Shown: positions 24,872-41,484 of the stretch, piece after piece | How positions within the stretch are numbered: position 1 is the stretch's first letter | How the letters are laid out: each line of letters starts with the position of its first letter | Translations under genes and position numbers: made by a program | The notes under the pieces: generated by a model | The model's input: only the letters and a program-made list of their open reading frames with translations | What the model was told of the DNA's origin: nothing | The model's database searches: none | Source: Clostridiales bacterium | GTDB lineage: Bacteria; Bacillota; Clostridia; Christensenellales; Borkfalkiaceae | Direction: 5' to 3' | NCBI GenBank assembly: GCA_015069425.1 | Contig: SVIP01000007.1 | Coordinates: forward strand, 1-46,079 | DNA: 46,079 bases

Positions 24872-24872
24872 A

Positions 24873-25886
24873 TTAAGCCTCATATTTCATAAGTTCGCTA
24901 TCAATCCATTTAGGGGCATAGATTATTCCGTTTTCTTTATCGTAATTGCCGATAATATCGTCAGGAGAAGGCTCTATTCTAAGCTCAATTATTTTATCCG
25001 AATAACCGCCCCAAATTCCTGTTTCCTTACATTCAAGATATTTTTCAATCCCCGAATAAATCGCTTTTTCGCCCCAGTTTACAATATGAAGTGTTGCAGG
25101 GTTAAATATTTGCGTTACAAACGGAGCTTCTTTTTCTTGAACGATAAAGAAAAAGTTTTGAACATCAACCCCTGTAACGGCTTTAATTCCCATACGGTAC
25201 ATTGCAGCCTGAATGTGATAACCATATTTTATAAACGAGCCGTAAAACGTTTCGGGCTTTGCACTATCCGTTGTTTTATAATCAGGAACGTCTAAACAGT
25301 CGTATGGCAAAAAATCAGGTCTGCATTTTAACCAAACCCCTGTTTTTTCATCTTGCCAAAAAATTGATAATTCCGATTCGCCCTTTTGGCTTAGAGCATT
25401 TTTACATTCGGGATTATTGTTAATCGCTCTTGCCATACAAACAACCTGATTTAATTCACTTGCCGTTAAATGAATTGCCTTTGGTTCAATATTAGCTTCA
25501 TTTAAAATAAGTTCCATAAGGTCGGGAACTAATAAACCTTTTAAATTGCCGTCGTAAAAGGTTGAAACCAGTTTAACAAGCTCATCTTTTTTCATTTCCG
25601 AATACGGATTATGCCAGTATTCTTTTTCAAATTCTTCTTTGCCCTCTAAAATATATTTATGAGCGGCTTTTCCGATTTTAAAATAAGGTTTTTCTTTTGG
25701 TTCATATTCGCCCGATAAATATTTATAATAATATTTTGCAGGACAATCAATTAAAGTTTTTAGTCCTGAATTAGATAATGCAGGGTATTTATGATAAATT
25801 TCATTTGGCATACCTCGAATTATGCAGGGTTCTGTTATTTCCATACCCTCTGCATAATCAATTATTAAATCTTTGCAATTTTCCAT
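24873..25886 (-). CDS. RecE-like PD-(D/E)XK exonuclease
   Basis: A 337-aa nuclease. N-terminal MPNEIYHKYPALSNSGLKTL and DCPAKYYYKYL, and the catalytic core WLKCRPDFLPYDCLDVPDYK (Asp, then D-x-K) followed by GYHIQAAMYRMGIK, match the RecE C-terminal/DUF3799 family. It would resect 5' ends of double-stranded DNA to feed the Rad52-like annealing protein 1 bp downstream; the pair supports recombination-dependent replication. Confidence 0.85.
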   Translation of the reverse strand: MENCKDLIIDYAEGMEITEPCIIRGMPNEIYHKYPALSNSGLKTLIDCPAKYYYKYLSGEYEPKEKPYFKIGKAAHKYILEGKEEFEKEYWHNPYSEMKKDELVKLVSTFYDGNLKGLLVPDLMELILNEANIEPKAIHLTASELNQVVCMARAINNNPECKNALSQKGESELSIFWQDEKTGVWLKCRPDFLPYDCLDVPDYKTTDSAKPETFYGSFIKYGYHIQAAMYRMGIKAVTGVDVQNFFFIVQEKEAPFVTQIFNPATLHIVNWGEKAIYSGIEKYLECKETGIWGGYSDKIIELRIEPSPDDIIGNYDKENGIIYAPKWIDSELMKYEA

Positions 25887-26790: not shown

Positions 26791-26813
26791 AATGATTTTG
26801 ACAAATAAAATTG

Positions 26814-26849
26814 AAATAAAAGGCGGTTAATGACTGCCCTATAACCGCC
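26814..26849 (-). terminator. Terminator-like hairpin 2 of 3
   Basis: Stem GGCGGTTA / TAACCGCC with a 12-nt loop followed by TTTTATTT on the minus strand. Confidence 0.6.
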
Positions 26850-26880
26850 AGTAACAAGTATTATAGTTTATATAAGTGTT

Positions 26881-26941
26881 AAAAATAAAAAGCAACCGCT
26901 TAAATGAATTCATCAGCGTTAATTGTTAATATTGCGGTTGC
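26881..26941 (-). terminator. Terminator-like hairpin 1 of 3, after the repeat protein gene
   Basis: Stem GCAACCGC / GCGGTTGC with a 34-nt loop followed by T5-A-T4 tract on the minus strand. It ends transcription of the 26952-28064 gene. Confidence 0.65.
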
Positions 26942-26951
26942 ATAAGAAGAT

Positions 26952-28064
26952 TTACTTTATGAAAAATTCTCTAAATGTTTCGTTTCCGAATTGATTTTCA
27001 GTAATTTTTATAATTTCAGAAATTTTATATTTCTTTTTAGTTTTAGATAAACTTTGAACAAAGTTTTTTGTTCCGAATTCGCAAGCACCGGTTATTGTTC
27101 GATACATTCTAATTGCTTCTTCAAAACTAACAACCGTATCAAGCTTATAGTTTTTATAAACTGATGTATCACGGTTTGATATTTTATAAATTAAAGATTC
27201 TCTTGCTTCTTTAATCGTTTTACCGTGTGAAAAAGTTGGAAGTTCATCATCGCCATTTTCAACCATCAAGCAATAAGATGTTTCGGTTTTGCCTGCAATT
27301 TGAATTTTATAGACATTTCTTTTTTTCTCAATGATTTTAGCTAAAATATCATCAGCAAATAAGAAGCCGAGTTTTAAAAAACATTCAAAATTAAATATTA
27401 AACAAAATTCTCTCGTTTTGAACGCAGGACAATTTTTATCATTTATTTTACAATCCTTTTTTAAGCTTATTTTAGCGTTTTCCCAAGCTTCCACCCAGCC
27501 ACCTATTGAAGTTACGTTTGGTAAGCTTATTTTAGCGTTTTGGCAAGCTTCCACCCAGCCACCTATTGAAGTTACGTTTGGTAAGCTTATTTTAGCGTTT
27601 TGGCAAGCTTCCACCGTGACACCTATTGAAGTTACGTTTGGTAAGCTTATTTTAGCGTTTTGGCAAGCTTCCACCGTGCCACCTATTGAAGTTACGTTTG
27701 GTAAGCTTATTTTAGCGTTTTGGCAAGCTTCCACCCAGCCACCTATTGAAGTTACGTTTGGTAAGCTTATTTTAGCGTTTTCCCAAGCTCTCACCCAGCC
27801 ACCTATTGAAGTTACGTTTGGTAAGCTTATTTTAGCGTTTTGGCAAGCTCTCACCCAGCCACCTATTGAAGTTACGTTTGGTAAGCTTATTTTTGCACCC
27901 TCGTTAGCTCTCACCCAACCACCGCAGGATGTCAGATTAGGCATTTTTAAATTAATTGCAGTTTCTAAAATCAAATCGCCTTTAATTTCAAAGACTTCAT
28001 TAATTTTTAAATTAGCTTTTGAATTAATAACTAAATCGCCTTTAACAATTTTATCGTATTTCAT
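26952..28064 (-). CDS. Solenoid protein with 20-residue repeats
   Basis: A 370-aa protein from ATG 28064 (AAAGGG at 6-7 nt); an in-frame start 12 codons earlier lacks a ribosome site. The N-terminal 60 residues form a beta cap (GDLVINSKANLKINEVFEIK). Then about eight to nine copies of a 20-aa repeat of the form LPNVTSIGGWVEACQNAKIS build a leucine-rich-like beta solenoid. The C-terminal 170 residues form an unrepeated alpha/beta domain ending near ETFREFFIK. Proteins of this build occur in phages and gut bacteria; function is unknown. Leftward, with no clear promoter seen. Confidence 0.75.
   Translation of the reverse strand: MKYDKIVKGDLVINSKANLKINEVFEIKGDLILETAINLKMPNLTSCGGWVRANEGAKISLPNVTSIGGWVRACQNAKISLPNVTSIGGWVRAWENAKISLPNVTSIGGWVEACQNAKISLPNVTSIGGTVEACQNAKISLPNVTSIGVTVEACQNAKISLPNVTSIGGWVEACQNAKISLPNVTSIGGWVEAWENAKISLKKDCKINDKNCPAFKTREFCLIFNFECFLKLGFLFADDILAKIIEKKRNVYKIQIAGKTETSYCLMVENGDDELPTFSHGKTIKEARESLIYKISNRDTSVYKNYKLDTVVSFEEAIRMYRTITGACEFGTKNFVQSLSKTKKKYKISEIIKITENQFGNETFREFFIK
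27475..27898. repeat. 60-bp tandem repeats, about seven nearly identical copies
   Basis: The unit containing ACCTATTGAAGTTACGTTTG and GTAAGCTTATTTTAGCGTTT recurs at exact 60-bp spacing from about 27475 to 27898, differing at only a few positions (for example CCCAGCC, CGTGACA, CGTGCCA variants). Third-position identity shows recent expansion. It encodes the 20-aa solenoid repeat on the minus strand; the matching long plus-strand open frame is only its shadow. Confidence 0.95.
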
Positions 28065-28503
28065 AAAAACCCTTTCAAAAATCCTAAAGTCAGCGGGCAA
28101 TAGGGGAACTATATACCCGCTTTGTTAGAACTTTCGTTCTAAAACCCTGCTAAGTTATATGGTTAACTTCTTCTGCAACGATTGCAGGGTTCTCCGTCTT
28201 TCCGAAGTGTCAAAAACTTAGAATTGTTATTTTTACCTTTTAATTTTTTGCTACCTTCCGTATTGTAGCCTGCCCTGCCGATAAACGAGATTTACGAGTC
28301 AGTGTCTTTATTAATTTATAACGCCCAGTCTGACAATTCGGGACTGCTGGCGGCTTTGAAGTTTTGCCTCTTTATTCAGTTGTCAAAAATTTGACATTCT
28401 CCAAAGTCATGTGCTACATGAGTTGTAACCTCTTTTCGCAGGTTAATCTTTATAAATTAAGTATTTATAAGAAAGGAGCCAAGGCGAAAGGAGGTGATGA
28501 ATA

Positions 28504-28557
28504 GTGAGGAAAATACTTATTAAGATTTCCCTTACTTGCCTAATCTGGCTCATGTAG
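28504..28557 (+). CDS. Possible 17-aa peptide behind a perfect Shine-Dalgarno
   Basis: GTG 28504 is 9 nt after GGAGG within AAAGGAGGTGAT, a full-length complement of the 16S rRNA 3' end. The peptide MRKILIKISLTCLIWLM is basic then hydrophobic. It lies inside the candidate RNA, whose stem TAAGTATTT/AAATACTTA would expose the ribosome site in a loop. It could be a leader or toxin-like peptide, or the SD-like sequence could serve the RNA itself. Confidence 0.35.
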   Translation: MRKILIKISLTCLIWLM

Positions 28558-28571
28558 CTGGACGTAGGGAG

Positions 28572-28604
28572 GAGGTTGCAAGTTTTGGCTTGCAGCCTCT
28601 TTTT
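28572..28604 (+). terminator. Strong rightward terminator
   Basis: Stem GAGGTTGCAAG / CTTGCAGCCTC (11 bp with one wobble), 6-nt loop, T5. It ends the candidate structured RNA. Confidence 0.9.
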
Positions 28605-28642
28605 AATATCAAATTTTCAAAGTTCAAATGTGTACTTTTTTT

Positions 28643-28674
28643 AAGCCCTGTAATTGTTTTTTCGGGGCTTTTAT
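28643..28674 (+). terminator. Second plus-strand hairpin
   Basis: Stem AAGCCC / GGGCTT followed by T4. It backs up the preceding terminator and lies between the candidate RNA and the convergent RHH gene. Confidence 0.5.
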
Positions 28675-28705
28675 AGTAAAATAAGTTTTGATTATAACTA
28701 AATAA

Positions 28706-28855
28706 CTATCCGTCATTGGCGGAGAGTTCATAATTAAAGAATTGAGCGACAATTTCTCGAACTGTTTGAGATATTTTCCAATGTTTATTTTTGGAATACT
28801 CATCAAGCAATTTGAAAAGTTCATCGTCTATTCTTGTCATTATTGGATTATTCAT
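28706..28855 (-). CDS. Ribbon-helix-helix regulator
   Basis: A 49-aa Arc/CopG-like protein from ATG 28855: MTRIDDELFKLLDEYSKNKH, then WKISQTVREIVAQFF, the usual strand-helix-helix. It faces the HTH repressor divergently, so the pair forms the likely lysis-lysogeny switch; this gene may be a Cro/antirepressor-type component. Promoter and operator lie at 28891-28919. Confidence 0.7.
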   Translation of the reverse strand: MNNPIMTRIDDELFKLLDEYSKNKHWKISQTVREIVAQFFNYELSANDG

Positions 28856-28890
28856 TCTCTTGTCCTTTGAATATGTCCTTTGATGATTAC

Positions 28891-28919
28891 ACTGTAACAT
28901 AAAGTTTCACTTTATGCAA
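28891..28919 (-). promoter_or_regulatory. Leftward promoter with operator dyad in its spacer
   Basis: Minus-strand -35 TTGCAT (28914-28919), 17-bp spacer, -10 TACAGT (28891-28896). The spacer contains a perfect inverted repeat CATAAAG-TGAAA-CTTTATG (28898-28916), where bound repressor would block polymerase. TGTCCTTTGA is repeated at 28861 and 28875 nearer the RHH start. Confidence 0.6.
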
Positions 28920-28967
28920 CTATTTTGTTTCAATATACATTAAATGATGTAGGAAAATTAATAAAAA

Positions 28968-29426
28968 GTGTTACTGCGTGAGCTTAGAGATATTTTACAA
29001 AACTTAAAAAAAACCAAAATTACAAACGAATTTTTGGGTAATTTGTATGGAACAAGTTCGCAAAATATAAGCAAAAGAATTTCTAATAACAGCGAAGCGA
29101 CAATTAAAGAAGCAGAAATTGCACAACAAGCATTAAATGTAAATATTATATTTAAAGCCAATGACCCCAAAAATAAGGTTATTAAAAATTCTCTTATAAA
29201 ACAAAACGATACAACTCTTTTAAAACGTTATGAAAACATAGGCAAACGGCTTGATTTAATACAGGATAAAAACAATATCGCTGATAGCAAAATGGCAAAA
29301 TTATTAAGAATTTCAGAAGAAGAATTTCTCGAAATAAAATGCGGTGAAATGGAAATAGATACAGAAATTTTATTTAAAATTAAACAAAATTTTGAAGTTT
29401 CAATAGATTGGCTTTTATGGGGTTAA
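28968..29426 (+). CDS. Phage repressor-like protein with two HTH domains
   Basis: A 152-aa protein read from GTG 28968 (the frame is closed by TAA at 28962). The N-terminal HTH is FLGNLYGTSSQNISKRISNN; the C-terminal XRE-like HTH is SKMAKLLRISEEEFLEIKCG, ending FEVSIDWLLWG, a typical XRE tail. It lacks a LexA-type peptidase, so induction would not be by self-cleavage. It is the likely prophage repressor, divergent from the RHH gene. The ribosome site (AGGA about 12 nt upstream) is weak. Confidence 0.7.
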   Translation: MLLRELRDILQNLKKTKITNEFLGNLYGTSSQNISKRISNNSEATIKEAEIAQQALNVNIIFKANDPKNKVIKNSLIKQNDTTLLKRYENIGKRLDLIQDKNNIADSKMAKLLRISEEEFLEIKCGEMEIDTEILFKIKQNFEVSIDWLLWG

Positions 29427-29680
29427 TCTTTCTTTAACTTCGCCGTGATATGTATCAATCCTAACATGATGTATATCTTCAAGACTTCGGGTTAAGTTAA
29501 AGTATCTAAAATCAATTTTTCTTTCGATTTTATTAATTCTTGCCATTTCTTGATGATGAGAATAAAAACAAAACATACAAAGACAAACTATAATAGCAAA
29601 ATTTAAAAATTGAAATGCGTAACTTCGCCTTAAAATATATGCCAAATTCTTTTAGCGTCTGAAAATAAAATTCTTTTCAT
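29415..29680 (-). pseudogene. Small membrane protein, possible 1-base frameshift
   Basis: Frame 29415-29645 opens with a poor TTG and reads through one membrane helix (FQFLNFAIIVCLCMFCFYS) to a charged tail. Just upstream, ATG 29680 with a good AAAGGA site encodes MKRILFSDAKRI in another frame, stopping after 16 codons. One extra T near 29644-29646 would join them into an 88-aa membrane protein. The two could also be a leader peptide and a separate gene. It is convergent with the repressor. Confidence 0.4.
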
Positions 29681-29814
29681 AATTAATTCCTTTGATGACA
29701 GTACAAAATCATGTTATTAAATGAATTTTTCAAATAAAGATTAAGATTTGAATTTTTAATAAAATTTTACATAAATAACAATATTTGCATGCTAATATAG
29801 GTTAAGAGGTTAAA

Positions 29815-29928
29815 GTGGAAATAAAAAAACAAATTAAAATCATTAAGGCTAAATTAAAAGAAATAAAGGAAGCAGGAATAGATAAAGTTAAATTATTTAA
29901 TTTTTTCATAATTTATCCTTTCGGATAA
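29815..29928 (+). CDS. Small basic hypothetical protein
   Basis: A 37-aa ORF from GTG 29815 with GAGG 5-6 nt upstream; Lys/Ile-rich helix (MEIKKQIKIIKAKLKEIKEA) and hydrophobic end. The stop is in a hairpin TTTATCC-TTTC-GGATAAA. Function unknown. Confidence 0.4.
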   Translation: MEIKKQIKIIKAKLKEIKEAGIDKVKLFNFFIIYPFG

Positions 29929-29958
29929 ATAAAAAAGCGTAAAAGAAAGAGGTCAAAA

Positions 29959-30153
29959 ATGGAAACAGGTGTGGCAATTTGGGGTGTATTTTTAGTATTT
30001 TCTTTGATATTTCTATATTTTTTACCGTCATTTGTCGCATTTTGCCGAAAAAAGCAAAACGGTTGTGCGATATTTATTTTAAACTTCTTTTTAGGTTGGA
30101 CATTTGTCGGTTGGGTTGTGGCTTTAGTTTGGGCTTTCACAAACGATAATTAA
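29959..30153 (+). CDS. Superinfection immunity-like membrane protein
   Basis: A 64-aa protein with two membrane helices and the hallmark end FFLGWTFVGWVVALVWAF of the Imm_superinfect family (T4 Imm-like). Such proteins sit in the cytoplasmic membrane and block DNA entry of related phages. It is 14 bp upstream of the zinc-ribbon gene, probably co-transcribed, and fits a lysogenic-conversion role. Confidence 0.8.
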   Translation: METGVAIWGVFLVFSLIFLYFLPSFVAFCRKKQNGCAIFILNFFLGWTFVGWVVALVWAFTNDN

Positions 30154-30167
30154 AATTGGAGGTCAAA

Positions 30168-31304
30168 ATGTTTTGTTGGTCTTGCGGTAAAGAAATAGCT
30201 GATAATTCCGTATATTGCTCCGAATGTGGCGAAAAACAAATAAAAAATGTTGAAAACAAGAAAAAAAGTTTTAAAGCTCCGATTATTTTAATTGCAATAT
30301 TTTCAATAGTCTTTTATTTTCTTTTAATTTGTCCTTTGAAATGCAGTTACAATATTTTTGGCTTCCAAGTTGATATTATTTTAAAATACGAACCTTTAAA
30401 ATGCCGTATGGTAATAAATTTAGGGGCTTTAAAATATAACATTGATAATATAAGCTGGCTAAAAGCGATAAATATAAGATATAATCTTTTGACAGGACAA
30501 ACCCCGCAGTTTGGAAACCCCAAACAAATAGAAAAAAATATCAACAAAGATAATTTATTAAATAACGCAAATGTCCATTTTATAAAATTTAAAGAAACAC
30601 AGAAAGGATATTCTTTAAATTTTTGGAAGATGAAAGAAAACAAAAAAGAAGAAGCGTTTAAAAAAGTCTATGATGACTATATAGATAAAATAAGCAATTT
30701 TAAAACTTATTTCGCAAATAACGGCGGTTATAATTTAGGTAATGAGTATTTCGATAATCATAAAGAAGATTTTAAAAAACTCGGCATTAATTTTATACAC
30801 CTTGAAGGAAGCTACGAACCAATACCTGATTATACAAGTTTAATAAAAACTTTCGGAATACCGAAAAATTGGAAAAAATGGCTTGAACTTCAAGAAAAAT
30901 ATACACTTGAACGATTATATACATGTAATGAAAGCGTCTGTGAAGGCGAATCGTTGAGCTTCAAAGAAATCAAACAAGCTATAATTGATTTAGGCGAAAT
31001 AGAAGAAAAATCAAAAACAATCGCTTCAATTAAAGCTGAAAATTATGATTATATTCCAGATACTTCGGCAAGATTTCTGAACAACTATTTAATCGGTAGT
31101 GATTTAAATTGGCTTTTTGATTATGACCGAACAAACAAAATATATGATAGTGTTAAAGAATCTTACGAAGATTTTATAAAAAATAATAAAGATTCGAAAT
31201 ATTATGGTTTAATAAACAAATATTACGACAAATTAAAAAAGAACAATTTTAGATATTCCGATAAAAACAAAGATTGGCTCTATGAACAACTTGAAAAAAT
31301 TTAA
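30168..31304 (+). CDS. Zinc-ribbon membrane protein
   Basis: A 378-aa protein from ATG 30168 with GGAGG at 5 nt. N-terminal zinc ribbon MFCWSCGKEIADNSVYCSEC, a membrane helix APIILIAIFSIVFYFLLICP (about 38-57), then a long Lys/Asn-rich domain presumably outside the cytoplasm. No family beyond the ribbon is recognised. With the immunity-like gene upstream it may be an exclusion or host-surface function expressed in lysogens; this is inference. Confidence 0.6.
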   Translation: MFCWSCGKEIADNSVYCSECGEKQIKNVENKKKSFKAPIILIAIFSIVFYFLLICPLKCSYNIFGFQVDIILKYEPLKCRMVINLGALKYNIDNISWLKAINIRYNLLTGQTPQFGNPKQIEKNINKDNLLNNANVHFIKFKETQKGYSLNFWKMKENKKEEAFKKVYDDYIDKISNFKTYFANNGGYNLGNEYFDNHKEDFKKLGINFIHLEGSYEPIPDYTSLIKTFGIPKNWKKWLELQEKYTLERLYTCNESVCEGESLSFKEIKQAIIDLGEIEEKSKTIASIKAENYDYIPDTSARFLNNYLIGSDLNWLFDYDRTNKIYDSVKESYEDFIKNNKDSKYYGLINKYYDKLKKNNFRYSDKNKDWLYEQLEKI

Positions 31305-31687
31305 CGATTTTTATAAACATACTCAGGAGCCTTTATATACCATAAATCAAACTTAAAAAATTCGGTTACTTTTTTAACCCGATAAAAATATTTAAAATCT
31401 TCGGGCTTTTCAACGATTAAAAGACAGACGGGCTTCTTTTTGGTTGAAACTCCATAATACAAAGCTTGCCCGATACATTCCGCCCATTTGGATGCGAAAT
31501 CAAATTCAACGGCGTAATTTGTCGTAACACAATCTATGCGGGTTTTGTCATTAAGCTCATATTCCATAATGCCGTTATATTTTCCGCACCATAAATTTTG
31601 ATAATATTTTTCAGGGTGTAAGTGCTTAGCTATACACCAATTCGAGAGTACGCTCGATATGGTCAGAATTAAAAACAGATTTTTCAT
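31301..31687 (-). CDS. Secreted PD-(D/E)XK-like protein
   Basis: A 128-aa protein with a signal peptide (MKNLFLILTISSVLSNWCIA, cleavage near residue 20). The mature part has RIDCVTTNYAVEFDFASKWA and ECIGQALYYGVSTKKKP: Asp52, then Glu61/Asp63 and Lys67, a PD-(D/E)XK-nuclease-like arrangement, followed by the strand VCLLIVEKPED. The export signal means it acts outside the cytoplasm. The substrate is unknown. It is convergent with the zinc-ribbon gene (4-bp overlap). Confidence 0.65.
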   Translation of the reverse strand: MKNLFLILTISSVLSNWCIAKHLHPEKYYQNLWCGKYNGIMEYELNDKTRIDCVTTNYAVEFDFASKWAECIGQALYYGVSTKKKPVCLLIVEKPEDFKYFYRVKKVTEFFKFDLWYIKAPEYVYKNR

Positions 31688-32679: not shown

Positions 32680-33036
32680 ATGAATGAAAAAAGTTTAGAA
32701 AATTTAAAAAAGGCGGATGACTTTTCAAGCACAAACCAACCAAGCCCCGAAGCAAAAAGCAGGGGCAAAATTGAAGCTTCGATTAAAAGAAACTTGCTTG
32801 AAACTTTAAGAAGCAGAATTGATGAATGGGATTTAGTCGACAAAGTTGTTTCGGGCGTTAATAGCGAAGTTGATAACGGAAATCTTAAAAACGCCATTGA
32901 GCTGTTGAAGATTGCAAAAGAACCTGAAAAACAGGAAATTAATCTTAACGGCGGTGTTGAAGTTCAAAAAGTGTTTATTGACGAAGCGACAAAAAAAGAA
33001 ACTCAAAAACATATCAAAGAGTTTATAAATGATTGA
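32680..33036 (+). CDS. Terminase small subunit-like protein
   Basis: A 118-aa protein directly before the large terminase (8-bp overlap). N-terminal KKADDFSSTNQPSPEAKSRG is a common start of small-terminase-like proteins, followed by helices with a likely DNA-binding HTH and the strand INLNGGVEVQKVFID. It would recognise phage DNA for packaging. No strong ribosome site precedes ATG 32680. Confidence 0.65.
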   Translation: MNEKSLENLKKADDFSSTNQPSPEAKSRGKIEASIKRNLLETLRSRIDEWDLVDKVVSGVNSEVDNGNLKNAIELLKIAKEPEKQEINLNGGVEVQKVFIDEATKKETQKHIKEFIND

Positions 33037-34489
33037 TACGGAATATTTAGGCTATGAACTAATTAAAGAGGGTTTTGAGGTTTGGTTCAGATATTTATTC
33101 AAAGCCATTGAACAGACAAAATTTGTAGTTGAACCGATACACGATTCACTTTTTGACTACGTTTCAAAAGTCTATAACGGCGATATTACAAGATTAACGA
33201 TAAATATTCCGCCAAGAGCAGGCAAGACAACGCTTGCAACTTATCTTTTGGTTTACGCTTTAACGATTAACCCAAAGAGCAACATAATTTATACAAGTTA
33301 CTCTCAAAGCCTTTTAACTGATATAGCTTCAAGGGTAAAAGATATACTTGAACATCCGATTTATAAGGCGATGTACCCGGGTAATGTTGTTTTAACCAAC
33401 GAAGAATTAAACCCCGATGATGATTTTTGGGCGGAATATCTTAAAAAAGAAACAGGCAAAAACACTTATTCAGCTAAAAAGATTGTAACATCTAAGGGCG
33501 GAATTTGTTTATTTTCTTCTATCGGAAGCCAGATAACAGGATATGGCGCAGGGCTAAGAAACGGCAAAGGCTTCACAGGTTGCCTTATTATAGATGACCC
33601 GAATAAACCCGATGATATTTACCATACAACATTAAGAAATAAAGTAACAAGATACTTTTCAGGCACTTTATTGAGCCGTCTTAATAATTCAAATGTTCCG
33701 ATTATATGTATTCAGCAAAGATTGCATCTTGAAGACTTATCGGGAATACTTAAAACAAAATATAATTTTACAACGCTAAAACGCCCTTTAATTGATGAAG
33801 CGGGGAATTGTTTATTACCAAGTCAATACTCCCCCGAAAGAATTAAAGAGCTTCAGGTTGATAATTACGTCTTTCAATCACAATATCAGCAAGAGCCTAT
33901 TATCTTAGGCGGTTCGGTTATTAAAAGAGAGTGGTTCAAATATTATAATCCTGCGGTTGAATATAACTACAATAAAATTGTAATTGCAGGTGATACCGCA
34001 ATGAGCGCAAAAGAACACGCTGATTATACCTGTTTTTTAGTTGGCGGTGTAACCGATATAGGCAAACTTCATATTTTGCAAATGGTACACGGGCGGTTTG
34101 AATATCCTGAACTCAAAAGAACCGCTATCAATTTATATAACAGTTGGCAGCGCAAAGACAAAACAAGCGCAAGTGCAATATATCTTGAAAACAAAGCAAG
34201 CGGTATTCAATTAATACAAGATTTTCAAACAACGGCTCTTCCCGTTATCCCGATTGACGTAACAAAAGATAAACTTGCAAGAGTTGAAGAAGTGCTTGAA
34301 TATATTGCAAGCGGTCAGGTTTTATTACCCGAAAGCGAACTTTACGGGGATAACCCAAAGATTTTAGCAGAGTGTGAAGCATTCACAAGAGATTTAAGCC
34401 AAAGCCACGACGACATTGTCGATACCCTTGTGCATCTTATCAATAATACCATAGCAAACAGGCAAGTATCTATTTTAGAGGTTTTATAA
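33029..34489 (+). CDS. terL: Terminase large subunit
   Basis: A 486-aa packaging motor. ATPase: Walker A PPRAGKTT (about 61-68), Walker B CLIIDDP (about 184-190), and the coupling region GTLLSRLNNSNVPIICIQQR. Nuclease: AGDTAMSAKEHADYT (about 321-335), KASGIQ and DDIVDTLVHL near the C-terminus, the RNase-H-like Asp triad of Terminase_6-type enzymes. It cuts and pumps DNA into the prohead. Confidence 0.95.
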   Translation: MIDTEYLGYELIKEGFEVWFRYLFKAIEQTKFVVEPIHDSLFDYVSKVYNGDITRLTINIPPRAGKTTLATYLLVYALTINPKSNIIYTSYSQSLLTDIASRVKDILEHPIYKAMYPGNVVLTNEELNPDDDFWAEYLKKETGKNTYSAKKIVTSKGGICLFSSIGSQITGYGAGLRNGKGFTGCLIIDDPNKPDDIYHTTLRNKVTRYFSGTLLSRLNNSNVPIICIQQRLHLEDLSGILKTKYNFTTLKRPLIDEAGNCLLPSQYSPERIKELQVDNYVFQSQYQQEPIILGGSVIKREWFKYYNPAVEYNYNKIVIAGDTAMSAKEHADYTCFLVGGVTDIGKLHILQMVHGRFEYPELKRTAINLYNSWQRKDKTSASAIYLENKASGIQLIQDFQTTALPVIPIDVTKDKLARVEEVLEYIASGQVLLPESELYGDNPKILAECEAFTRDLSQSHDDIVDTLVHLINNTIANRQVSILEVL

Positions 34490-34540
34490 TATTTTCCGCC
34501 TGTCAAATTAAAATTTGAAACGGCGCAGTTAAAGGATTTC

Positions 34541-34569
34541 GTTATTTAATGCTCAACGCATTAAATAAC
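34541..34569 (+). other. 12-bp perfect hairpin upstream of portal gene
   Basis: GTTATTTAATGC-TCAAC-GCATTAAATAAC, loop of 5 nt, 15 bp before the portal ATG, which has no Shine-Dalgarno site. A looser CGCC/GGCG pairing precedes it. No T tail, so it is not a standard terminator; it may set mRNA stability or portal translation. Confidence 0.65.
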
Positions 34570-34583
34570 TACACACAAATATT

Positions 34584-35945
34584 ATGCAACATTACAGCAG
34601 AAAAAAACAATTTAAAAACTTTGATAACCGAATTAATAACGGTTTGGGTGAAGCTCTAAATTTGCCTAGCTATGGCATCAATAACCCTCTTGTTAATGCA
34701 GGGATAATGATAAGCAACACGTCGCCTCAATTATTAACGCTTAACTGGATGGAGCTAACTTATTTTTATAAGCAAAACGGCTTTATTCAAACCGCAATTA
34801 ATCAAATAGTGGATGACGCCTTCAGAAATGACGGGCTTATAATCGATTCTAAAACTTTATCAACAAATGAGCTTGAAGAACTAAAACAAGCATTAATTGA
34901 TAACGGCGATATAGACGCTATTATGGATTGCTTACGTTGGGGGCAGTTATACGGGGGCGGTGTGTTAATCGCTAATACAGAACAAAACTTTAGCTTGCCC
35001 TTAAATAGAAACAATTTAAAAGGTAAAAAATTAACTTTTCTTGCTTCCGACCGTTGGCAATGCCAAAGCAACGGAATAAGCCCCGAATTAGCCAAAAACT
35101 TCACTTTTTGCGATACGCTCGAAAGCAACACAACATCGGGCGTATTAATCGATTCAAGCCGTGTTGCAACATTCAGCGGTGTCAAAGCTCCGTATCAGCT
35201 AAGAGCAATGTTGCAGGGTTGGGGTTTATCTATTTTTGAATCAATAATCCCGCCATTAAATCAATACTTAAAAGCGATGAACGTAACGCTTGAATTGTTA
35301 GATGAAGCAAAAATTGATGTTGTTAAAATTGCAAAACTGGCACAAACTCTTTTATCCCCGAACGGTGAAAGAATTGTTAGAAAACGTCTTGCACTTGTAA
35401 GCGAAAATAAAAACTATAAATCGTCAATCGCTATGGATAAAGACGACGATTACGACCAAAAGCAAATATCTTTTAGCGGTTTACCCGATATGATAGTTCA
35501 AATTCAATATTTGGTTTGTGCTGCTCTTAAAAGACCGTATTCAAAGATATTCGGCAAAGGATCAAGCGGATTTTCAAGCGGTGAAGACGACCTCGAAAAC
35601 TATAATACAATAGTTGATAGCGAAATAAGACGGCCTGCGACAAACCTTATAAAATGGGTTGTAAATTTAAGATGTCTGCAATTATTCGGCAGAGAATTAA
35701 CCGATTTTCGCCCGAAATGGCGACCGCTTAGGGTAATGACCGAAAAAGAACAAGCGGAAGTTAATTCAAAAAAATTAGCCGATTATATAGCACTTTTAGA
35801 GCATCAGGTCATGACACCAAAACAGGTAGCTCAAAAACTAACCGAAGACGGATATATTTTATTTTCGGATGATGAAATTGATAATATTTCGGATGATTTT
35901 GCTCCCGATATGGAAGAACAATTAAAAGACGAACTTTATGCGTGA
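34584..35945 (+). CDS. Portal protein (DUF1073-like)
   Basis: A 453-aa portal. MELTYFYKQNGFIQTAINQI with VDDAFRNDGLII, LRWGQLYGGGVLIANTEQ and SFSGLPDMIVQIQYLVCAAL then KGSSGFSSGEDDLENY are hallmarks of the DUF1073/anti-CBASS-Acb1-linked portal family. It forms the dodecameric vertex for DNA entry. It overlaps the MuF gene by 8 bp. Confidence 0.85.
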   Translation: MQHYSRKKQFKNFDNRINNGLGEALNLPSYGINNPLVNAGIMISNTSPQLLTLNWMELTYFYKQNGFIQTAINQIVDDAFRNDGLIIDSKTLSTNELEELKQALIDNGDIDAIMDCLRWGQLYGGGVLIANTEQNFSLPLNRNNLKGKKLTFLASDRWQCQSNGISPELAKNFTFCDTLESNTTSGVLIDSSRVATFSGVKAPYQLRAMLQGWGLSIFESIIPPLNQYLKAMNVTLELLDEAKIDVVKIAKLAQTLLSPNGERIVRKRLALVSENKNYKSSIAMDKDDDYDQKQISFSGLPDMIVQIQYLVCAALKRPYSKIFGKGSSGFSSGEDDLENYNTIVDSEIRRPATNLIKWVVNLRCLQLFGRELTDFRPKWRPLRVMTEKEQAEVNSKKLADYIALLEHQVMTPKQVAQKLTEDGYILFSDDEIDNISDDFAPDMEEQLKDELYA

Positions 35946-38232
35946 GAATACTTTTGATAAGGTTGAAATTAAAGAATATTATATAAAACATGTTGCTTCG
36001 GGTATGCGCAAATATTTCTTTGATAACATCTTTAAAGCGATATTTGAAGTTATTAAAAGCAATTCCGTTGTTAATTCAAAATCCGCTTTAATTAACGCTA
36101 TAAGAAATCATAGAATATATTATAAAGACGGTGCATTTAGAACCGATACAAGATTTTCAAACGATATAGCAAAAACGCTTGAAAATATGGGAGCAGTATA
36201 TAAATCAGGAAGTTATTTTATTGAAAAAAGCAAAATTCCTCTTGAAATAACACAAGCGCTCTCTATTGCAGCTAATCAGGCAATTTTTAAACTGTCCGCC
36301 ATAAAAACAATATTATCAACGCTTGATACATCTAAAATTGACCTTGAACCGTATATCACGGTTGCAGTTCAGGAAATGTATAAAACACTTGAAAAAGATA
36401 TTGTTAAATCTGCTCTTAAAAAACAAGTTCCCGTTATTGAATTAGGGCTTGTAAAACCTAAAATTGATATTCCAAAAGCCGAATATAAAAATGTTGAAAG
36501 CTACTGGAAAGTGCAGGATAAAAAAGCGGATGAGCTTAAAAAAGAAATCAAAAAAGCCGATAAAAAAGGACTTGATACGGCAGAACTAAAAGAGAAACTT
36601 GCAGAACTAAACGCTGAAACCTATCAAAACGCTCCTGATATTAAACTTGAAATTGATAATATTGAGCTTGATGAGCAAAGCAAAAAAATTGCTTCTGATT
36701 ATACCTACAATATGAAATACTGGGTTAAAAATTGGGAAGCAAAGAATATTATTAAAATGCGTGAAGACGTATTGAATATGGTTCAAAAGGGCGCAAGAGT
36801 TCCAGAAATTGAAAAATACTTTTTGAAGCGCTGGAAAATTGCAGGCGATAAGGCATATTTTTTAGCAAAAAATGAAAGCCATTTAGCAGGTTCGGTTATT
36901 CAAAAAACGCAATACGAAAAATTAGGCTCAAACCGTTTTAAATGGGGAGGAAGCTCCGCAAAAGAAAAAAGAGAACTCCATAAAGAATACTACGGTAAAA
37001 TCTTTTATTTTGATGACCCCCCGATTATTGATGAAAAGCTGGGTATTAAAGGGCTACCAAGGCAAATTTGGAATTGTTTACCTGCCAAAGAGCCAATCGT
37101 TAGTCCTTTCTTCTATAAAAGGATTTATCGGAGATGGTACACAGGCGAATTGACCACGCTTGTTACGAGTTCGGGTTATTCTTTGAACACCACACCTAAT
37201 CACCCTATATTGACCAATAAAGGATGGGTTGGTGCAGGTTCTATTAAAGTAGGCGACAAAATTGCTAAGGTTAAGGATGATTTCATCTTTAGCACCTGCA
37301 AAAACCCACAAAACACCATAACCACTATTGACCAACTTTTTGATTTTTTCAGCGTGTTTCTTAATCCTGAAAGGGTTACGACAACTGCTGGAGATTTCCA
37401 CGGCGATGGAATGGTTGACAAGCAAGTCGAGATTATAAATATCGAAAGCAACCTGTTTTTCGACAGTAAAACCGTGTTGGATAAGGATATTGTAAATTTC
37501 TTCTTCGCCAAAGCCGAAGATACGCTTATAAGGGTTGACTTCTCTAAATGTAGCAGCTTTTTTAAGTCTCTCAACATTGGCGGGTTTATTCCTCAGAGTA
37601 TTATTAGCATTTTTGACAAGATGCTTACGCTCGTCAATAGAGAGTTTGCTCATTCTGACTGTTTGAGCATCGGACATATTGCGATGCTTAATACCCTGTT
37701 CATTCAAATGGTGAACAATAGTACCTCTTGCGACTTTGAAATGCTTTGCAATAGCTTGAACACTCCACCCTTCAAGAAACATACTTTTTATCGTTTTATT
37801 TGGGAGTTGTTTATACTTATTGCCAATACGTTTATGACGGATGACGTTATGCCCGTATTTACGCATGCAGGCACCAAGATAACTTCCGTTGATGCCGAAT
37901 TGCTCGGCGATTTCAAACAAATTCAATCCTTTAATATTGAGTTTGATACAGTGGTCGATAAAACTAGCCGTGAATTTAATAATCATATTTTTAACCTCGA
38001 AAATGTGAATAATTGGTATTTATACCACAATTATATCATAAAAAATTGTTTATGTCATATGGAAATAGTTGTCCCGACACTAGCAGAACTTCAAAACAGA
38101 CGAAATAAAATCAAAAACGAAAAAACATTAACAGGAAAATTAATCAATGCCACAACTTCAATATTCAAAAGTAAACAATGCGATAATTACCTTAACCGAT
38201 ACAGACGATTTGACCAAAGGGAGACACTTTAA
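35938..38232 (+). CDS. MuF-like head morphogenesis protein, interrupted by an intein
   Basis: A 764-aa precursor. N-extein of 379 residues (35938-37074) contains the MuF pattern LKKDI... helices, IIKMREDVLNMVQKGARVPE, LAKNESHLAGSVIQKTQYEK and GLPRQIWN. The C-extein (61 aa, 38047-38232) begins CLCHMEIVVP. Joined, they give WNCLCHMEIVV, the conserved N-C-x-C motif of MuF proteins, so splicing would make a 440-aa head protein. It follows the portal, as in Mu- and SPP1-like phages, and overlaps the next gene by 86 bp in another frame. Confidence 0.85.
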   Translation: MRENTFDKVEIKEYYIKHVASGMRKYFFDNIFKAIFEVIKSNSVVNSKSALINAIRNHRIYYKDGAFRTDTRFSNDIAKTLENMGAVYKSGSYFIEKSKIPLEITQALSIAANQAIFKLSAIKTILSTLDTSKIDLEPYITVAVQEMYKTLEKDIVKSALKKQVPVIELGLVKPKIDIPKAEYKNVESYWKVQDKKADELKKEIKKADKKGLDTAELKEKLAELNAETYQNAPDIKLEIDNIELDEQSKKIASDYTYNMKYWVKNWEAKNIIKMREDVLNMVQKGARVPEIEKYFLKRWKIAGDKAYFLAKNESHLAGSVIQKTQYEKLGSNRFKWGGSSAKEKRELHKEYYGKIFYFDDPPIIDEKLGIKGLPRQIWNCLPAKEPIVSPFFYKRIYRRWYTGELTTLVTSSGYSLNTTPNHPILTNKGWVGAGSIKVGDKIAKVKDDFIFSTCKNPQNTITTIDQLFDFFSVFLNPERVTTTAGDFHGDGMVDKQVEIINIESNLFFDSKTVLDKDIVNFFFAKAEDTLIRVDFSKCSSFFKSLNIGGFIPQSIISIFDKMLTLVNREFAHSDCLSIGHIAMLNTLFIQMVNNSTSCDFEMLCNSLNTPPFKKHTFYRFIWELFILIANTFMTDDVMPVFTHAGTKITSVDAELLGDFKQIQSFNIEFDTVVDKTSREFNNHIFNLENVNNWYLYHNYIIKNCLCHMEIVVPTLAELQNRRNKIKNEKTLTGKLINATTSIFKSKQCDNYLNRYRRFDQRETL
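37075..38046 (+). mobile_element. Intein in MuF protein (324 codons)
   Basis: Starts at Cys1 (CLPAKEPIVSPFF), block B contains TxxH in LNTTPNHPILT (T40, H43) and ends GSIKVGDKIAKV. Near the C-terminus block F/G reads NLENVNNWYLYHNYIIKN, ending in Asn, with Cys as +1 residue. The penultimate residue is Lys where His is usual. Codon 2 is TTA and the C-extein also begins TGT TTA, so AATTGTTTA flanks both junctions. A middle motif TAGDFHGDGMVDKQVEIINI resembles those of other phage-head inteins as I remember them. No LAGLIDADG motif is visible on the plus strand. Confidence 0.85.
37078..37986 (-). CDS. Antisense homing endonuclease nested in the intein (HTH + Vsr-like)
   Basis: A 302-aa gene entirely within the intein on the opposite strand. 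Two HTH segments: LFEIAEQFGINGSYLGACMR (about 23-42) and SVQAIAKHFKVARGTIVHHL (about 75-94). A linker follows, then a Vsr/EDxHD-like nuclease: GEEEIYNILIQHGFTVEKQV (160-179), YNLDLLV (D187), IAVEISSS (E197), H211, VNSGYGVLWVF and the tail NPSFIGQYRVIRCG. It has GAGG 8 nt before ATG 37986 and a promoter at 38030-38058. It would cut intein-less MuF genes and spread the intein. Its stop, TAA, is complementary to intein codon 2. Confidence 0.8.
   Translation of the reverse strand: MIIKFTASFIDHCIKLNIKGLNLFEIAEQFGINGSYLGACMRKYGHNVIRHKRIGNKYKQLPNKTIKSMFLEGWSVQAIAKHFKVARGTIVHHLNEQGIKHRNMSDAQTVRMSKLSIDERKHLVKNANNTLRNKPANVERLKKAATFREVNPYKRIFGFGEEEIYNILIQHGFTVEKQVAFDIYNLDLLVNHSIAVEISSSCRNPFRIKKHAEKIKKLVNSGYGVLWVFAGAKDEIILNLSNFVAYFNRTCTNPSFIGQYRVIRCGVQRITRTRNKRGQFACVPSPINPFIEERTNDWLFGR
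38030..38058 (-). promoter_or_regulatory. Near-consensus promoter for the antisense endonuclease
   Basis: Minus-strand -35 ATGACA (38053-38058), 17-bp spacer, -10 TATAAT (38030-38035). Start of transcription would be near 38023, giving a leader of about 37 nt with GAGG at 37995-37998. The elements overlap the intein C-terminal block and the first codons of the C-extein. Confidence 0.75.
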
Positions 38233-39346
38233 AAGCCGTTTTATTCAACCCGGTTTAGCAGGTTACCCCGGGCAATTCGGCAACGCATTAATTAAAAAAG
38301 AAAACCTTGATAAATTTGTATGGACACTAAGAAGCAAACCCGTAACCATAAACCATAAAGATAAAATAGAAGATAAAGACAAAGTCGGTATTGTTAATAA
38401 TGTTTGGTTTAATCCCGAAGACGGTTGGTATTGGTGCGACGGCATAATTTTTGATAATGAAGCAATTAATTTAATTAATAACGGTTGGTCTGTTTCCTGC
38501 GCTTATGACTTTACAAAAGCGGATAATTCAGGCGGTAAGGAAAACAACATACCTTATGATATTGAGTTCTTAGACGGTGAATTTAATCACTTAGCACTTG
38601 TTGATAATCCACGCTATGAAGGTGCTAATATTGTGTTTAATTCAAAAAACAAAGTAACAAACTGGCTTAATAATGATGAAATAGGCAGTTGGATAACAAC
38701 AAAAGACGGTGCTAAAATACCTATTCGTAAAGGTTTATCTAAAAAAGACGGTATAAAAGAATTTGCAAACAAACACGTTGAAGACCAAAAAAGGAAAAAC
38801 CAAAAGAGAGAAGAAGCATATACAATTCTGGCTGGAGCGTTGGGAGAAACAAAAGATTACGTCAAAAAACATCTAAAAAAAAGTAAAAAATTACAAGACA
38901 AGCTTGAACAATTAAAAACAGATGATAATTTAAAAACAGATGTTTCTTTTGATGCTATGGAATATTACAATTTACAGGGAATTAATGAAGATGACTTAAA
39001 AGCACAGGAAGAATTGATTGACAGAGCCTTAACCGATGTTCTGACCGATAATTTCAGCATCCCCCAAGATGAAGAAGCGGAATATTATAGAGAACTTGAA
39101 AAAAAATTGAACAAAGGTTACTCAACAATATTAAAAGGTTTTAAAAAGGATAATGACTGGGAAAAAGCAGAGCAAAAACTAGCAGACCTTTACGGATTTG
39201 ATAATATCGAAGATTTCAGAAATGAAGAAAAGTTAACAAAATTTTATCAGGATTTAAGCAAAAATTTAGAAGACGACACCAAAGCCCAAAACTCCCTAAC
39301 CGATACAATTTTAAACGCTATTGCTGAGTTAATCATAGGCGAATAA
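38147..39346 (+). CDS. DUF2213-like head maturation protein with C-terminal extension
   Basis: A 399-aa protein. Residues about 1-170 show the DUF2213/prohead-protease-like pattern: SRFIQPGLAGYPGQFGNALI, KPVTINHKDKIEDKDKVGIV and GEFNHLALVDNPRYEGANIV. From about 180 there is SWITTKDGAKIPIRKGLSKK, a short module often found in MuF-region proteins, then a long acidic helical tail. It probably cleaves or assembles prohead proteins. Residues for catalysis are not certain. Confidence 0.75.
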   Translation: MPQLQYSKVNNAIITLTDTDDLTKGRHFKSRFIQPGLAGYPGQFGNALIKKENLDKFVWTLRSKPVTINHKDKIEDKDKVGIVNNVWFNPEDGWYWCDGIIFDNEAINLINNGWSVSCAYDFTKADNSGGKENNIPYDIEFLDGEFNHLALVDNPRYEGANIVFNSKNKVTNWLNNDEIGSWITTKDGAKIPIRKGLSKKDGIKEFANKHVEDQKRKNQKREEAYTILAGALGETKDYVKKHLKKSKKLQDKLEQLKTDDNLKTDVSFDAMEYYNLQGINEDDLKAQEELIDRALTDVLTDNFSIPQDEEAEYYRELEKKLNKGYSTILKGFKKDNDWEKAEQKLADLYGFDNIEDFRNEEKLTKFYQDLSKNLEDDTKAQNSLTDTILNAIAELIIGE

Positions 39347-39364
39347 ACAAAAATAAATACCCTT

Positions 39365-39390
39365 TAACCGCTCTTATTTTAGGGCGGTTA
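39365..39390 (+). terminator. Weak hairpin between head genes
   Basis: Stem TAACCGC / GCGGTTA followed by TTTGC. The T tail is weak, so it probably attenuates or sets mRNA stability before the scaffold gene. Confidence 0.45.
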
Positions 39391-39431
39391 TTTGCATACA
39401 AAATTACACAAAACGAAAGGAAAATAATCCA

Positions 39432-39959
39432 ATGGAAGAAAACATTAAAACAAAAGACTTAGTAAAGGCTTTTTTTGAACCTTTGCTACAAATGGCATTT
39501 GTTAAAAACAGCAAAGATGAAGAAAAAAAAGACGAAGTTAAAAACGAAGATGTCGATAAAAGAAAACTTATCGACGAAGTTGCAGGGATTATGAAATCCG
39601 CAGGTTGTGATGATGAAGTAATCAGAACCGCAATAGGAAAAATGGAGCGTATCGGCTATGACAAATCAGAAGCAGGCACAGCCGATAACAAAAAAGTCAA
39701 AAATGAAGACAAAAAAGAAGATGAAGACGTTAAAAACAAAAAGGTAAAAAACGAAGACGAAAAAGATAAAGAAAAAGTTGAAGACCTTAAAGAAGACGTT
39801 AAAGAAGACATCAAAAACAAATGTAAAAATTCGGTAGAAAACGCAAAAACCGATTACTACGCAAAACTAAACGAAATATATAATTCAACGACTGCTTCAA
39901 AAGGTCAAAAACAACTTTTGACAAGAGAAGAAAGACTTGAAGACGGCAATAGATTTTAA
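39432..39959 (+). CDS. Scaffold-like protein
   Basis: A 175-aa, extremely charged, helical protein with Lys/Glu/Asp repeats such as DEEKKDEVKNEDVDKRKLID and KEDVKEDIKNKCKNSVENAK. Its composition, size and place just before the cement and capsid genes fit a capsid scaffold. No sequence family is recognised. Confidence 0.65.
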   Translation: MEENIKTKDLVKAFFEPLLQMAFVKNSKDEEKKDEVKNEDVDKRKLIDEVAGIMKSAGCDDEVIRTAIGKMERIGYDKSEAGTADNKKVKNEDKKEDEDVKNKKVKNEDEKDKEKVEDLKEDVKEDIKNKCKNSVENAKTDYYAKLNEIYNSTTASKGQKQLLTREERLEDGNRF

Positions 39960-39979
39960 TTTTGAAAGGAAATACTAAT

Positions 39980-40447
39980 ATGACAGCTTTACAACTTAAT
40001 GATTTAAAAATCACACCGAGAGACGGCGCTTATGTATATATGCCAAACGTTCCTCAACCGCATAATGTAATTGTATCACCTAATCAGGCAACCGCACTTA
40101 AAGCAGGCGACATTGTAACGCTTGACACGACAGTAGCTAACGCTCATTGTCCCGTTGTTAAAAAAGCGGCAGTTAATGACCCGATTTTCGGTGTTATTCC
40201 TTATGACGTAAGAAAAAATGCTTATGTTGCAAACGAAAAAACACAAGTGGCTATTGAAGGAAGCTATATTTACAAAACCGCAGCCGCTTCGATTACGCAG
40301 GGTGCTAAATTATACTTTGACGTTAACGGACAAGTAACATCATCAGCAACCGCAGGGAACTCTATTTTAGGCGTTGCAAACACTTCCGCTGCCGCAAAAG
40401 ATGATTTTGTTCAGGTAAAACTACATTTTGAAACTACTTCAGCTTAA
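39980..40447 (+). CDS. Capsid cement/decoration protein (DUF2190/Gp24-like)
   Basis: A 155-aa protein from ATG 39980 behind GAAAGG. The beta-barrel pattern NQATALKAGDIVTLDTTVAN, DPIFGVIPYD and VAIEGSYIYKTAAASITQGA is typical of small phage cement proteins directly before the major capsid gene. It would stabilise the capsid. Confidence 0.7.
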   Translation: MTALQLNDLKITPRDGAYVYMPNVPQPHNVIVSPNQATALKAGDIVTLDTTVANAHCPVVKKAAVNDPIFGVIPYDVRKNAYVANEKTQVAIEGSYIYKTAAASITQGAKLYFDVNGQVTSSATAGNSILGVANTSAAAKDDFVQVKLHFETTSA

Positions 40448-40464
40448 TTATAGGAGACAAAATA

Positions 40465-41484
40465 ATGACTAAAGAAAATATGATTGGCGCTTTTACTCTC
40501 GACCAATTCAAACAAAAAATGAGAGTTAATAATGCTAATGAAGCATTAACAAACCCGGGTTTTGAAACTCAAATCACTTCAACAACTCAGGTAATTACTA
40601 AGGTTCTTGAAACAAACTATTACGAATTAAACGGTCAAAAATTATCTGATTTTACCCCGATTGAAACAGGTATGGGAGCATTTAAAACCGACCTTACTCA
40701 ATACGCTACAAAAGCACAGGGAATAGATTTTAAGGCTTGCTTAATTAATCCTACATCAGGAGCGTTTAACCTGGATGGACAAACCGATATTGAAATCGGC
40801 GAAGAAACTTATCCTAATAACTTCTTTAGAGATACTTATACCGTAACTAAAGAAGGCGCTGAAATCGCAGCAAGAAATATTATCCCTCTTGACCTTGTCG
40901 GCGCAAAAGAAAGAGCAAGAAAGAAAAAATTTGATTTAGGCTTACAAGAAGCTTGGTTTTTAGGACTTGATGACGGGCGTTCTTACGGTCTTTTGAATCA
41001 ACCCTCTGCCGTTGTTGATACATCGACTTTAAACGGTAAAAACTTATCAGCTATGACAGATGATGAATTTGCTACATTTATTGCAACAATCAGAGCATAT
41101 TATGATAACATAACAAATTCAACGGCTATGTTTGACCGCTTAATGCTTCCTCAACAGGAATATTTCAAACTTGATAAAGTATTTGGACAATTCGGCTTAT
41201 CAAGAAGAAGTATTTTAGACGACGTATTAAAAGAAGCAGGCGGTAAAATCGTTTATACCCGTTATAACACAACAGCAGGTACAGGCGGAGGTGCTAGATA
41301 CGCACTTTATAAATATGACCCTGATTATATTGAAGGTTATTTACCTCTTGAATATACTCCATATCCTTTATTCCCGATTAACGATTTAGATATGGTTTCT
41401 CAATGTATGGCTCAATTTGTAACACCGCAGGTCAAACGCAAAAATATTCTTGTTTATCTTGACGTTGTTGCTCCTTCAACATAG
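40465..41484 (+). CDS. Major capsid protein (DUF2184-like)
   Basis: A 339-aa HK97-fold capsid protein. It contains GFETQITSTTQVITKVLETN, VGAKERARKKKFDLGLQEAW, LDDGRSYGLLNQP and a long E/A-loop region with PQQEYFKLDKVFGQFGLSRR, fitting the DUF2184 family. Neighbouring cement and head-completion genes agree. The likely terminator hairpin follows at 41519. Confidence 0.85.
   Translation: MTKENMIGAFTLDQFKQKMRVNNANEALTNPGFETQITSTTQVITKVLETNYYELNGQKLSDFTPIETGMGAFKTDLTQYATKAQGIDFKACLINPTSGAFNLDGQTDIEIGEETYPNNFFRDTYTVTKEGAEIAARNIIPLDLVGAKERARKKKFDLGLQEAWFLGLDDGRSYGLLNQPSAVVDTSTLNGKNLSAMTDDEFATFIATIRAYYDNITNSTAMFDRLMLPQQEYFKLDKVFGQFGLSRRSILDDVLKEAGGKIVYTRYNTTAGTGGGARYALYKYDPDYIEGYLPLEYTPYPLFPINDLDMVSQCMAQFVTPQVKRKNILVYLDVVAPST

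Follow-up and report, generated by a model that had tools for sequence, protein, structure and literature searches.

A MuF-type head gene in a Clostridiales prophage very probably carries a two-way intein, one strand of which would encode a protein-splicing precursor and the other a free homing nuclease. The window analyzed here, 46,079 nucleotides of contig SVIP01000007.1 (G000:C3), is a prophage contig with phage genes including integrase, terminase, portal, MuF and capsid genes. Its MuF-type minor head protein gene (35938..38232, plus strand) encodes a precursor of 764 amino acids interrupted by an intein of 324 codons (37075..38046, plus strand). On the opposite strand of the same DNA, an open reading frame (ORF) runs from 37986 to 37078, entirely within the intein, starting opposite block F and stopping 3 nucleotides from the Cys1 edge. 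An original prediction, made from the letters of the window, had interpreted this ORF as a nuclease encoded antisense in the intein, and our analysis supports that interpretation.

The intein had been predicted from its Cys1, a TPNHP block B, a terminal Asn and a +1 Cys, all of which can be seen in the sequence: Cys1 is TGT at 37075, the terminal Asn codon is at 38044-38046 and the +1 Cys codon at 38047-38049. The span first given, 37075..38058, begins at the right nucleotide and overshoots the intein end by 12 nucleotides into the C-extein. These motifs are class 1-like (Cys1, block B TxxH, terminal Asn, +1 Cys/Ser/Thr), and C1, T40, N42, H43 and N324 are invariant in 53 of 53 loci, which had been picked by such motifs beforehand. 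The window intein ends in Lys-Asn (38041-38046), without the usual penultimate His, and several relatives end in Ser-Asn. The precursor matches PF04233 (E 2.3e-6) and PF14890 (E 1.1e-5), both under the curated Pfam cut-offs, and the head protein profile phrog_15127 (E 1.6e-69). Both Hint halves are confidently predicted by AlphaFold2 (AF2). The N-terminal half (blocks A and B, residues 1-70, 37075..37284, plus strand; predicted local distance difference test score (pLDDT) 87-98) is also supported by profile comparison with solved inteins and by sense-type substitutions in relatives, and the A6 profile matches the Hint parts of PI-PkoII. The intein middle (residues 128-282, 37456..37920, plus strand) is predicted to be disordered in sense (block pLDDT 34-60 for residues 131-280), and no PDB profile match was found between the Hint halves. 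An in-frame endonuclease in this sense middle was rejected, as no nuclease domain was found there; the element, tested for this, is not of the in-frame bifunctional intein type.

The antisense gene (37078..37986, minus strand) encodes a protein of 302 amino acids (P0002) with two N-terminal helix-turn-helix (HTH) units (residues 1-100, 37687..37986), further helices and a Vsr/EDxHD-like nuclease domain (residues approximately 153-253, 37228..37530). The nested minus-strand HTH plus Vsr-like endonuclease of the original prediction is thus present as an ORF, and its nuclease domain has a PD-(D/E)XK Vsr-like fold and profile matches. E161, N185, D187 and E197 are invariant in 77 of 77 family members; E161, D187 and E197 may correspond to part of the E-D-x-H-D residue pattern, and the His after the third strand that belongs to the family consensus is missing from the window protein. 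Searches by profile and structure placed the nuclease at the level of the family, in which PF18741 (MTES_1575) matches 37 of the 77 members at E <= 0.01 (best 1.7e-10) and the domain profile matches the intron-encoded enzyme I-Bth0305I (PDB 3r3p); the window protein by itself stayed under the curated cut-off (PF18741, 3.3e-4) or at chance level. Nuclease fold, Pfam and PDB matches were found for the antisense reading only. By motif the element belongs to inteins and by fold to Vsr/EDxHD-like nucleases.

Could the antisense ORF be a mirror image of sense coding, with no gene behind it? Part of its conservation does mirror the sense protein, YRVIRC being the reflection of block B TPNHPI, and across Hint-N evolution follows mainly the sense frame. 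The codons of the two frames lie exactly opposite one another, in one antisense phase, where sense stops mirror to antisense TTA and CTA (Leu) and TCA (Ser), and vice versa. TTA and CTA make up 58% of the Leu codons of the window and TCA 30% of its Ser codons, and the antisense ORF, with 20 Leu codons and 15 Ser codons, uses none of them (P 1.1e-10 given the codon usage of the window). Elsewhere in the window, 21 coding stretches stay open in this phase for no more than 84 codons, a maximum reached in the MuF N-extein. The antisense open run has a median length of 303 codons for 58 inteins and of 86 for the N-exteins belonging to those genes. Because avoiding three codons that have synonyms leaves both strands open and fixes no residue, this may explain the choice of phase.

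A further argument against a mirror ORF comes from the substitutions themselves. We counted variable sites by sense codon position 1/2/3, with the antisense third position falling on sense position 1. In exteins most variable sites fall at position 3 (N-extein 101/71/217 and C-extein 30/17/94 in the Guernseyvirinae-type set), and in the intein middle at position 1 (Guernseyvirinae-type 84/22/41, Gordonia 57/10/35, Klebsiella/Edwardsiella 90/40/67). Read in sense, codons of the middle that differ by a single base are synonymous in 25 cases and nonsynonymous in 132; read in antisense, they are synonymous in 109 and nonsynonymous in 48. Hint-N (blocks A and B) has a sense-type pattern in all three sets (17/7/26, 3/1/21 and 15/2/21, in the same order), as has Hint-C in the Guernseyvirinae-type (1/0/9) and Gordonia (0/0/4) sets. 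In 26 pairs, picked greedily from 91 and with shared members, position 1 exceeds position 3 in 22 of the middles and position 3 exceeds position 1 in all 26 N-exteins; positions 1 and 3 are close in the four exceptional pairs, three of which are nearly one comparison. The codon-position test in three lineages shows, as judged by substitution pattern, that the antisense frame is a selected coding gene, and it refutes the mirror-ORF artefact, which together with the antisense-only fold and profile matches leaves that explanation next to no probability.

At the invariant nuclease residues both synonymous codons are in use (E161 GAA/GAG 41/36, N185 42/35, D187 47/30, E197 68/9), so that the sense residue flips between F and L or between I and V. 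Residues 195 and 196 have nearly fixed codons (GCC 70/77, GTG 68/77). The nuclease motif (I/V)AVE mirrors a dual-coded sense motif, FHGD (37396..37407, plus strand; codon table of 77 sequences), of which HGD is kept (H 70/77, G 72/77, D 74/77). This spot seems, from its codons, to be constrained on both strands, and FHGD, conserved beyond the demand of AVE, probably serves some separate purpose, whether for the Hint protein or for the DNA.

The same arrangement recurs widely. A tblastn search with the window antisense protein matched 92 phage records, with at least 80% query cover in 26; for the LP31 homologue the numbers were 106 and 103. From the matches to the window protein 17 phage loci were taken, and in every one the nuclease frame lies opposite a gene annotated as head, MuF, minor capsid or hypothetical. 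Scans of IMG/VR contributed 111 loci, for 128 in total; as the IMG/VR and GenBank sets overlap (L032 with MSW-3; L048 and L049 with S1249 and Aaphi23), the number of independent cases is below 128. Across the whole match, 125 of the 128 loci have an open phase-0 sense frame and 120 an open antisense frame, and any other opposite frame is open in 0 of 128. Random breakage of the antisense frame in homologous inteins, which the original prediction had named as contrary to it, is not what these loci show. Regular expressions recovered an N- or C-terminal intein motif in 121 of the 125 sense-open loci and both in 89, in keeping with the earlier suggestion that the same layout may hide in other phage-head inteins. 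The antisense stop lies near the match end in four loci (L007, L019, L075, L113) and well before it in four others (L044, L087, L121, L122); L121 and L122, with the sense frame still open, are possible decayed nucleases, and L044 and L087, with sense also interrupted, possible contig errors. Seven more loci lie in bacterial genomes (Actinobacteria, Firmicutes UBA7523, Gemmatimonadales, Phaeospirillum, Rubellimicrobium, Solirubrobacterales and Scytonema), all with both frames open in the same phase and an N-terminal motif, and six with a C-terminal motif.

Clustering at 80% identity reduced 125 loci to 86 clusters, L044, L083 and L087 having been dropped beforehand, and intein ends could be set by motif in 88 of the 125 loci and 58 of the 86 clusters. 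Sense proteins of the window and 65 of the clusters were scanned at E <= 0.01 (left out were 18 with sense frames of >760 amino acids, L068, L121 and L137); these 66 proteins matched Phage_Mu_F in 59 cases, Intein_splicing in 60 and phrog_15127 in 66. Inteins are typically inserted at N|C or Q|C, ahead of a C-x-C or C-R-S motif. Closer to the window, its MuF gene is identical in two IMG/VR contigs (L001, L002), the nuclease query matched only its own genome among 101, and the extein query, among 201 genomes, matched its own and one intein-free relative. A phylum search with profile A1 matched 101 of 398 genomes including that of the window, the matches listed outside it being partial (HTH or nuclease), and a plasmid search matched 2 records. 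The sense frame of L092:2530-3975 has a further, upstream intein-type C-terminal motif (VYDLHIQDDHSFIASDVPVHN|S), such that this MuF gene may hold a second, different intein. In phages MG969408 (GE_vB_HIL) and MG969409 (GE_vB_M4) the region matches in two pieces or places, as if frameshifted or duplicated, by possible decay or sequencing error.

Comparison of MuF genes with and without the intein revealed an uninterrupted junction, GQTYN|CRCG, at the matching place in a genome of the same genus (L023). Intein-free homologues of this conserved gene are also seen at the sequence level in L030 and by gene length and an alignment break in L029. For the LP31 region, 502 phage records match, 58 of them over at least 80% in one place, and 20 of the 40 matches listed are split into three aligned segments with lower cover, as if the intein were absent. 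Two intein-free-like phages have head genes of 1044 bp versus 1860 bp in LP31, and the difference of 816 bp, or 272 codons, is the LP31 intein length. ER15 has an uninterrupted HPN|CRS junction, and Psm140 an alignment break at the same place. Nucleotide identities of N-extein, intein and C-extein are 69.1/95.3/79.5% for L016 versus L018, 70.4/96.2/80.8% for L008 versus L016 and 89.7/100/92.9% for L018 versus L025. In the first two pairs the intein is more alike than the host gene on both sides, as expected of active homing and also possible by ordinary recombination. As a control, L027 and L028 have N-exteins 63-69% like those of the other eight loci and inteins only 77.3-81.6% like theirs, which suggests from these alignments that dual coding alone does not yield 95% intein identity.

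Homing genes usually decay. The nuclease is under strong purifying selection, and early internal stops occur in only the 4 loci of 128 named above, as might be expected had it been recruited for a non-homing role such as regulation of MuF by antisense transcription or inter-phage exclusion. However, its patchy presence, the intein-free close relatives and inteins far more alike than their flanking genes are what active homing predicts, and we consider such recruitment unlikely. A different history, in which a free-standing phage homing endonuclease invaded an existing mini-intein in reverse, would make the two separate nested elements, with a nuclease target that may lie elsewhere. The nuclease domain does resemble an intron-encoded enzyme, and an HNH/NUMOD4 endonuclease (L083:2488-3378) has a similar HTH, the only part it shares with the antisense nuclease, which suggests that DNA-binding modules are exchanged between homing enzyme types. 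Yet the nuclease faces an open sense frame in one phase in nearly all loci, almost always with an intein motif, and no common nuclease-free form stood out: LP31 Hint-N (E <= 1e-3) matched 108 phage records and the nuclease (E <= 1e-5) 106, as counts and not record by record. Reverse invasion thus appears quite improbable.

The antisense gene has candidate expression signals of its own, as had been predicted for both its Shine-Dalgarno site and its promoter. Its start ATG (37984..37986, minus strand), 60 nucleotides from the intein end, mirrors the block F His codon CAT, and a Shine-Dalgarno GAGG (37995..37998), 9-12 nucleotides before the ATG, mirrors the block F Asn-Leu codons AAC CTC. A TG-extended promoter-like ATGACA-17-TATAAT (38058-38030, minus strand; 11/12 match) spans the intein end and C-extein start and is the top-scoring such site in 36900-38300. 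Start-codon and block F counts in relatives rest on 58 clusters and promoter counts on 56. The codon 60 nucleotides inside the intein 3' end is ATG in 42 of 58 clusters and GTG in 3. The His codon of HVYNLE is CAT in 42 of 45 versus 18.3 expected from the extein codon usage of each gene, the Leu codon, which supplies the Shine-Dalgarno GAG on the opposite strand, is CTC in 39 of 52 versus 8.1, and the Asn codon is AAC in 37 of 50 versus 28.0. Just upstream, 20 of 56 have a promoter-like site of at least 10/12, versus 5.4 expected, and 15 have one of at least 11/12, versus 1.4, with expectations from redrawn synonymous codons, which replaced a first, looser control (1.2 expected versus 20/58 observed). 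The PK1 phage record annotates the antisense frame as a hypothetical protein, and vB_StyS-sam annotates a short coding sequence (402 nucleotides) on that strand.

In the two-way intein that we favor, sense translation would yield a MuF-intein precursor, whose Hint halves, as modeled by AF2, would come together around a long loop with little structure and splice out. The minus strand, using its own start codon and ribosome site within the block F codons and often its own promoter, would make the free nuclease, for which coding is shown by selection. Given the nuclease fold, the intein-free alleles and the divergence between intein and extein, the target of this enzyme would be the conserved N|C junction of MuF genes that lack the intein, and repair of the cut by recombination would copy the whole element in. 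The phase would impose little cost, since sense stops mirror to Leu and Ser codons with synonyms, and separate expression would probably allow an early nuclease, ahead of the late head genes. We also lean, with less assurance, toward a broader reading, that this is an old and widespread class of two-way inteins in which block F doubles as nuclease start and ribosome site, AVE as FHGD, and the strand switch uncouples an early nuclease from a late head gene.

Several observations weigh against the two-way intein. Transcription, splicing and cleavage are deduced from sequence. The best Foldseek match of the nuclease is weak (3r3p, E 0.013), the window antisense protein alone gave only chance-level matches against the PDB (phmmer) and only Pfam matches below cut-off, and it lacks the His that usually follows the AVE motif. 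Four of the 125 sense-open loci (L080, L082, L098, L113) have neither intein motif, the short Hint-C of the Klebsiella/Edwardsiella set does not return to the sense pattern (7/3/5), the start geometry is not universal, and promoter-like sites of at least 10/12 are limited to the 20 loci of 56. As for mobility, intein identity is inflated by dual coding, the effect for which L027 and L028 are the control; the similar tract of L015 and L018 (69.1/96.6/93.3%) extends downstream, as ordinary longer-tract recombination would give; and distance correlations of 0.45-0.47 among nuclease, Hint and MuF did not separate shared history.

Like the bifunctional inteins PI-SceI and PI-PkoII, the element combines a Hint splicing domain at a conserved host-gene codon with a spreading nuclease, but theirs is in frame and part of the spliced-out protein, whereas here it lies on the other strand and would be a separate protein. 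The PD-(D/E)XK catalytic fold is shared with Vsr and the EDxHD enzyme I-Bth0305I, although the PDB title of 3r3p calls it a mobile intron protein and here the domain follows two HTH units, antisense in an intein. Dassa and colleagues are said to have described, in 2009, split inteins with separate EDxHD genes, the nuclease likewise being encoded separately from the protein that splices; in those the host gene is reportedly fractured in two, whereas here it is continuous. Antisense homing endonuclease genes are known from nuclear group I introns, as in I-DsqI, where the gene is on the strand opposite the host gene and separately expressed (PMC9548176), as we suppose here. Unlike that intron RNA, which needs no open sense frame, an intein has to be translated through, and thus both strands must stay open. 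The ShiLan element likewise hides a homing endonuclease out of frame with the phage methylase gene that it interrupts, but on the same strand, of HNH type and with no intein or intron splicing domain (PMC11855218). We found no antisense endonuclease in an intein in the literature, of which subscription papers and preprints, where related cases may stand, were thinly covered; the word antisense is absent from the available sections of PMC8966425, PMC5050341 and PMC13405050, as are MuF and capsid from those of PMC5050341, on mycobacteriophage inteins.

Elsewhere in the prophage, the terminase, portal, MuF, DUF2213 and capsid genes occupy 33029-41484. An integrase gene (17933-19090) and a Rad52-like plus PDDEXK (DUF3799) gene pair (24071-25886) could provide the recombination required for homing. 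No inverted repeats were found in 26800-31500.

An intein may therefore be mobile without an in-frame endonuclease, and large phage inteins with featureless middles should have their opposite strand re-read. The element is a clear example from nature of a long antisense gene nested completely within another, whose start codon, ribosome site and, in many cases, promoter are accommodated by the motifs for protein splicing. It also accounts for phrog_15127, a head-protein family so far described in sense only. Phages of many bacterial groups share this two-way layout and would provide many natural pairs of nuclease and target at one conserved MuF junction, in which the timing of homing relative to virion assembly may be studied.
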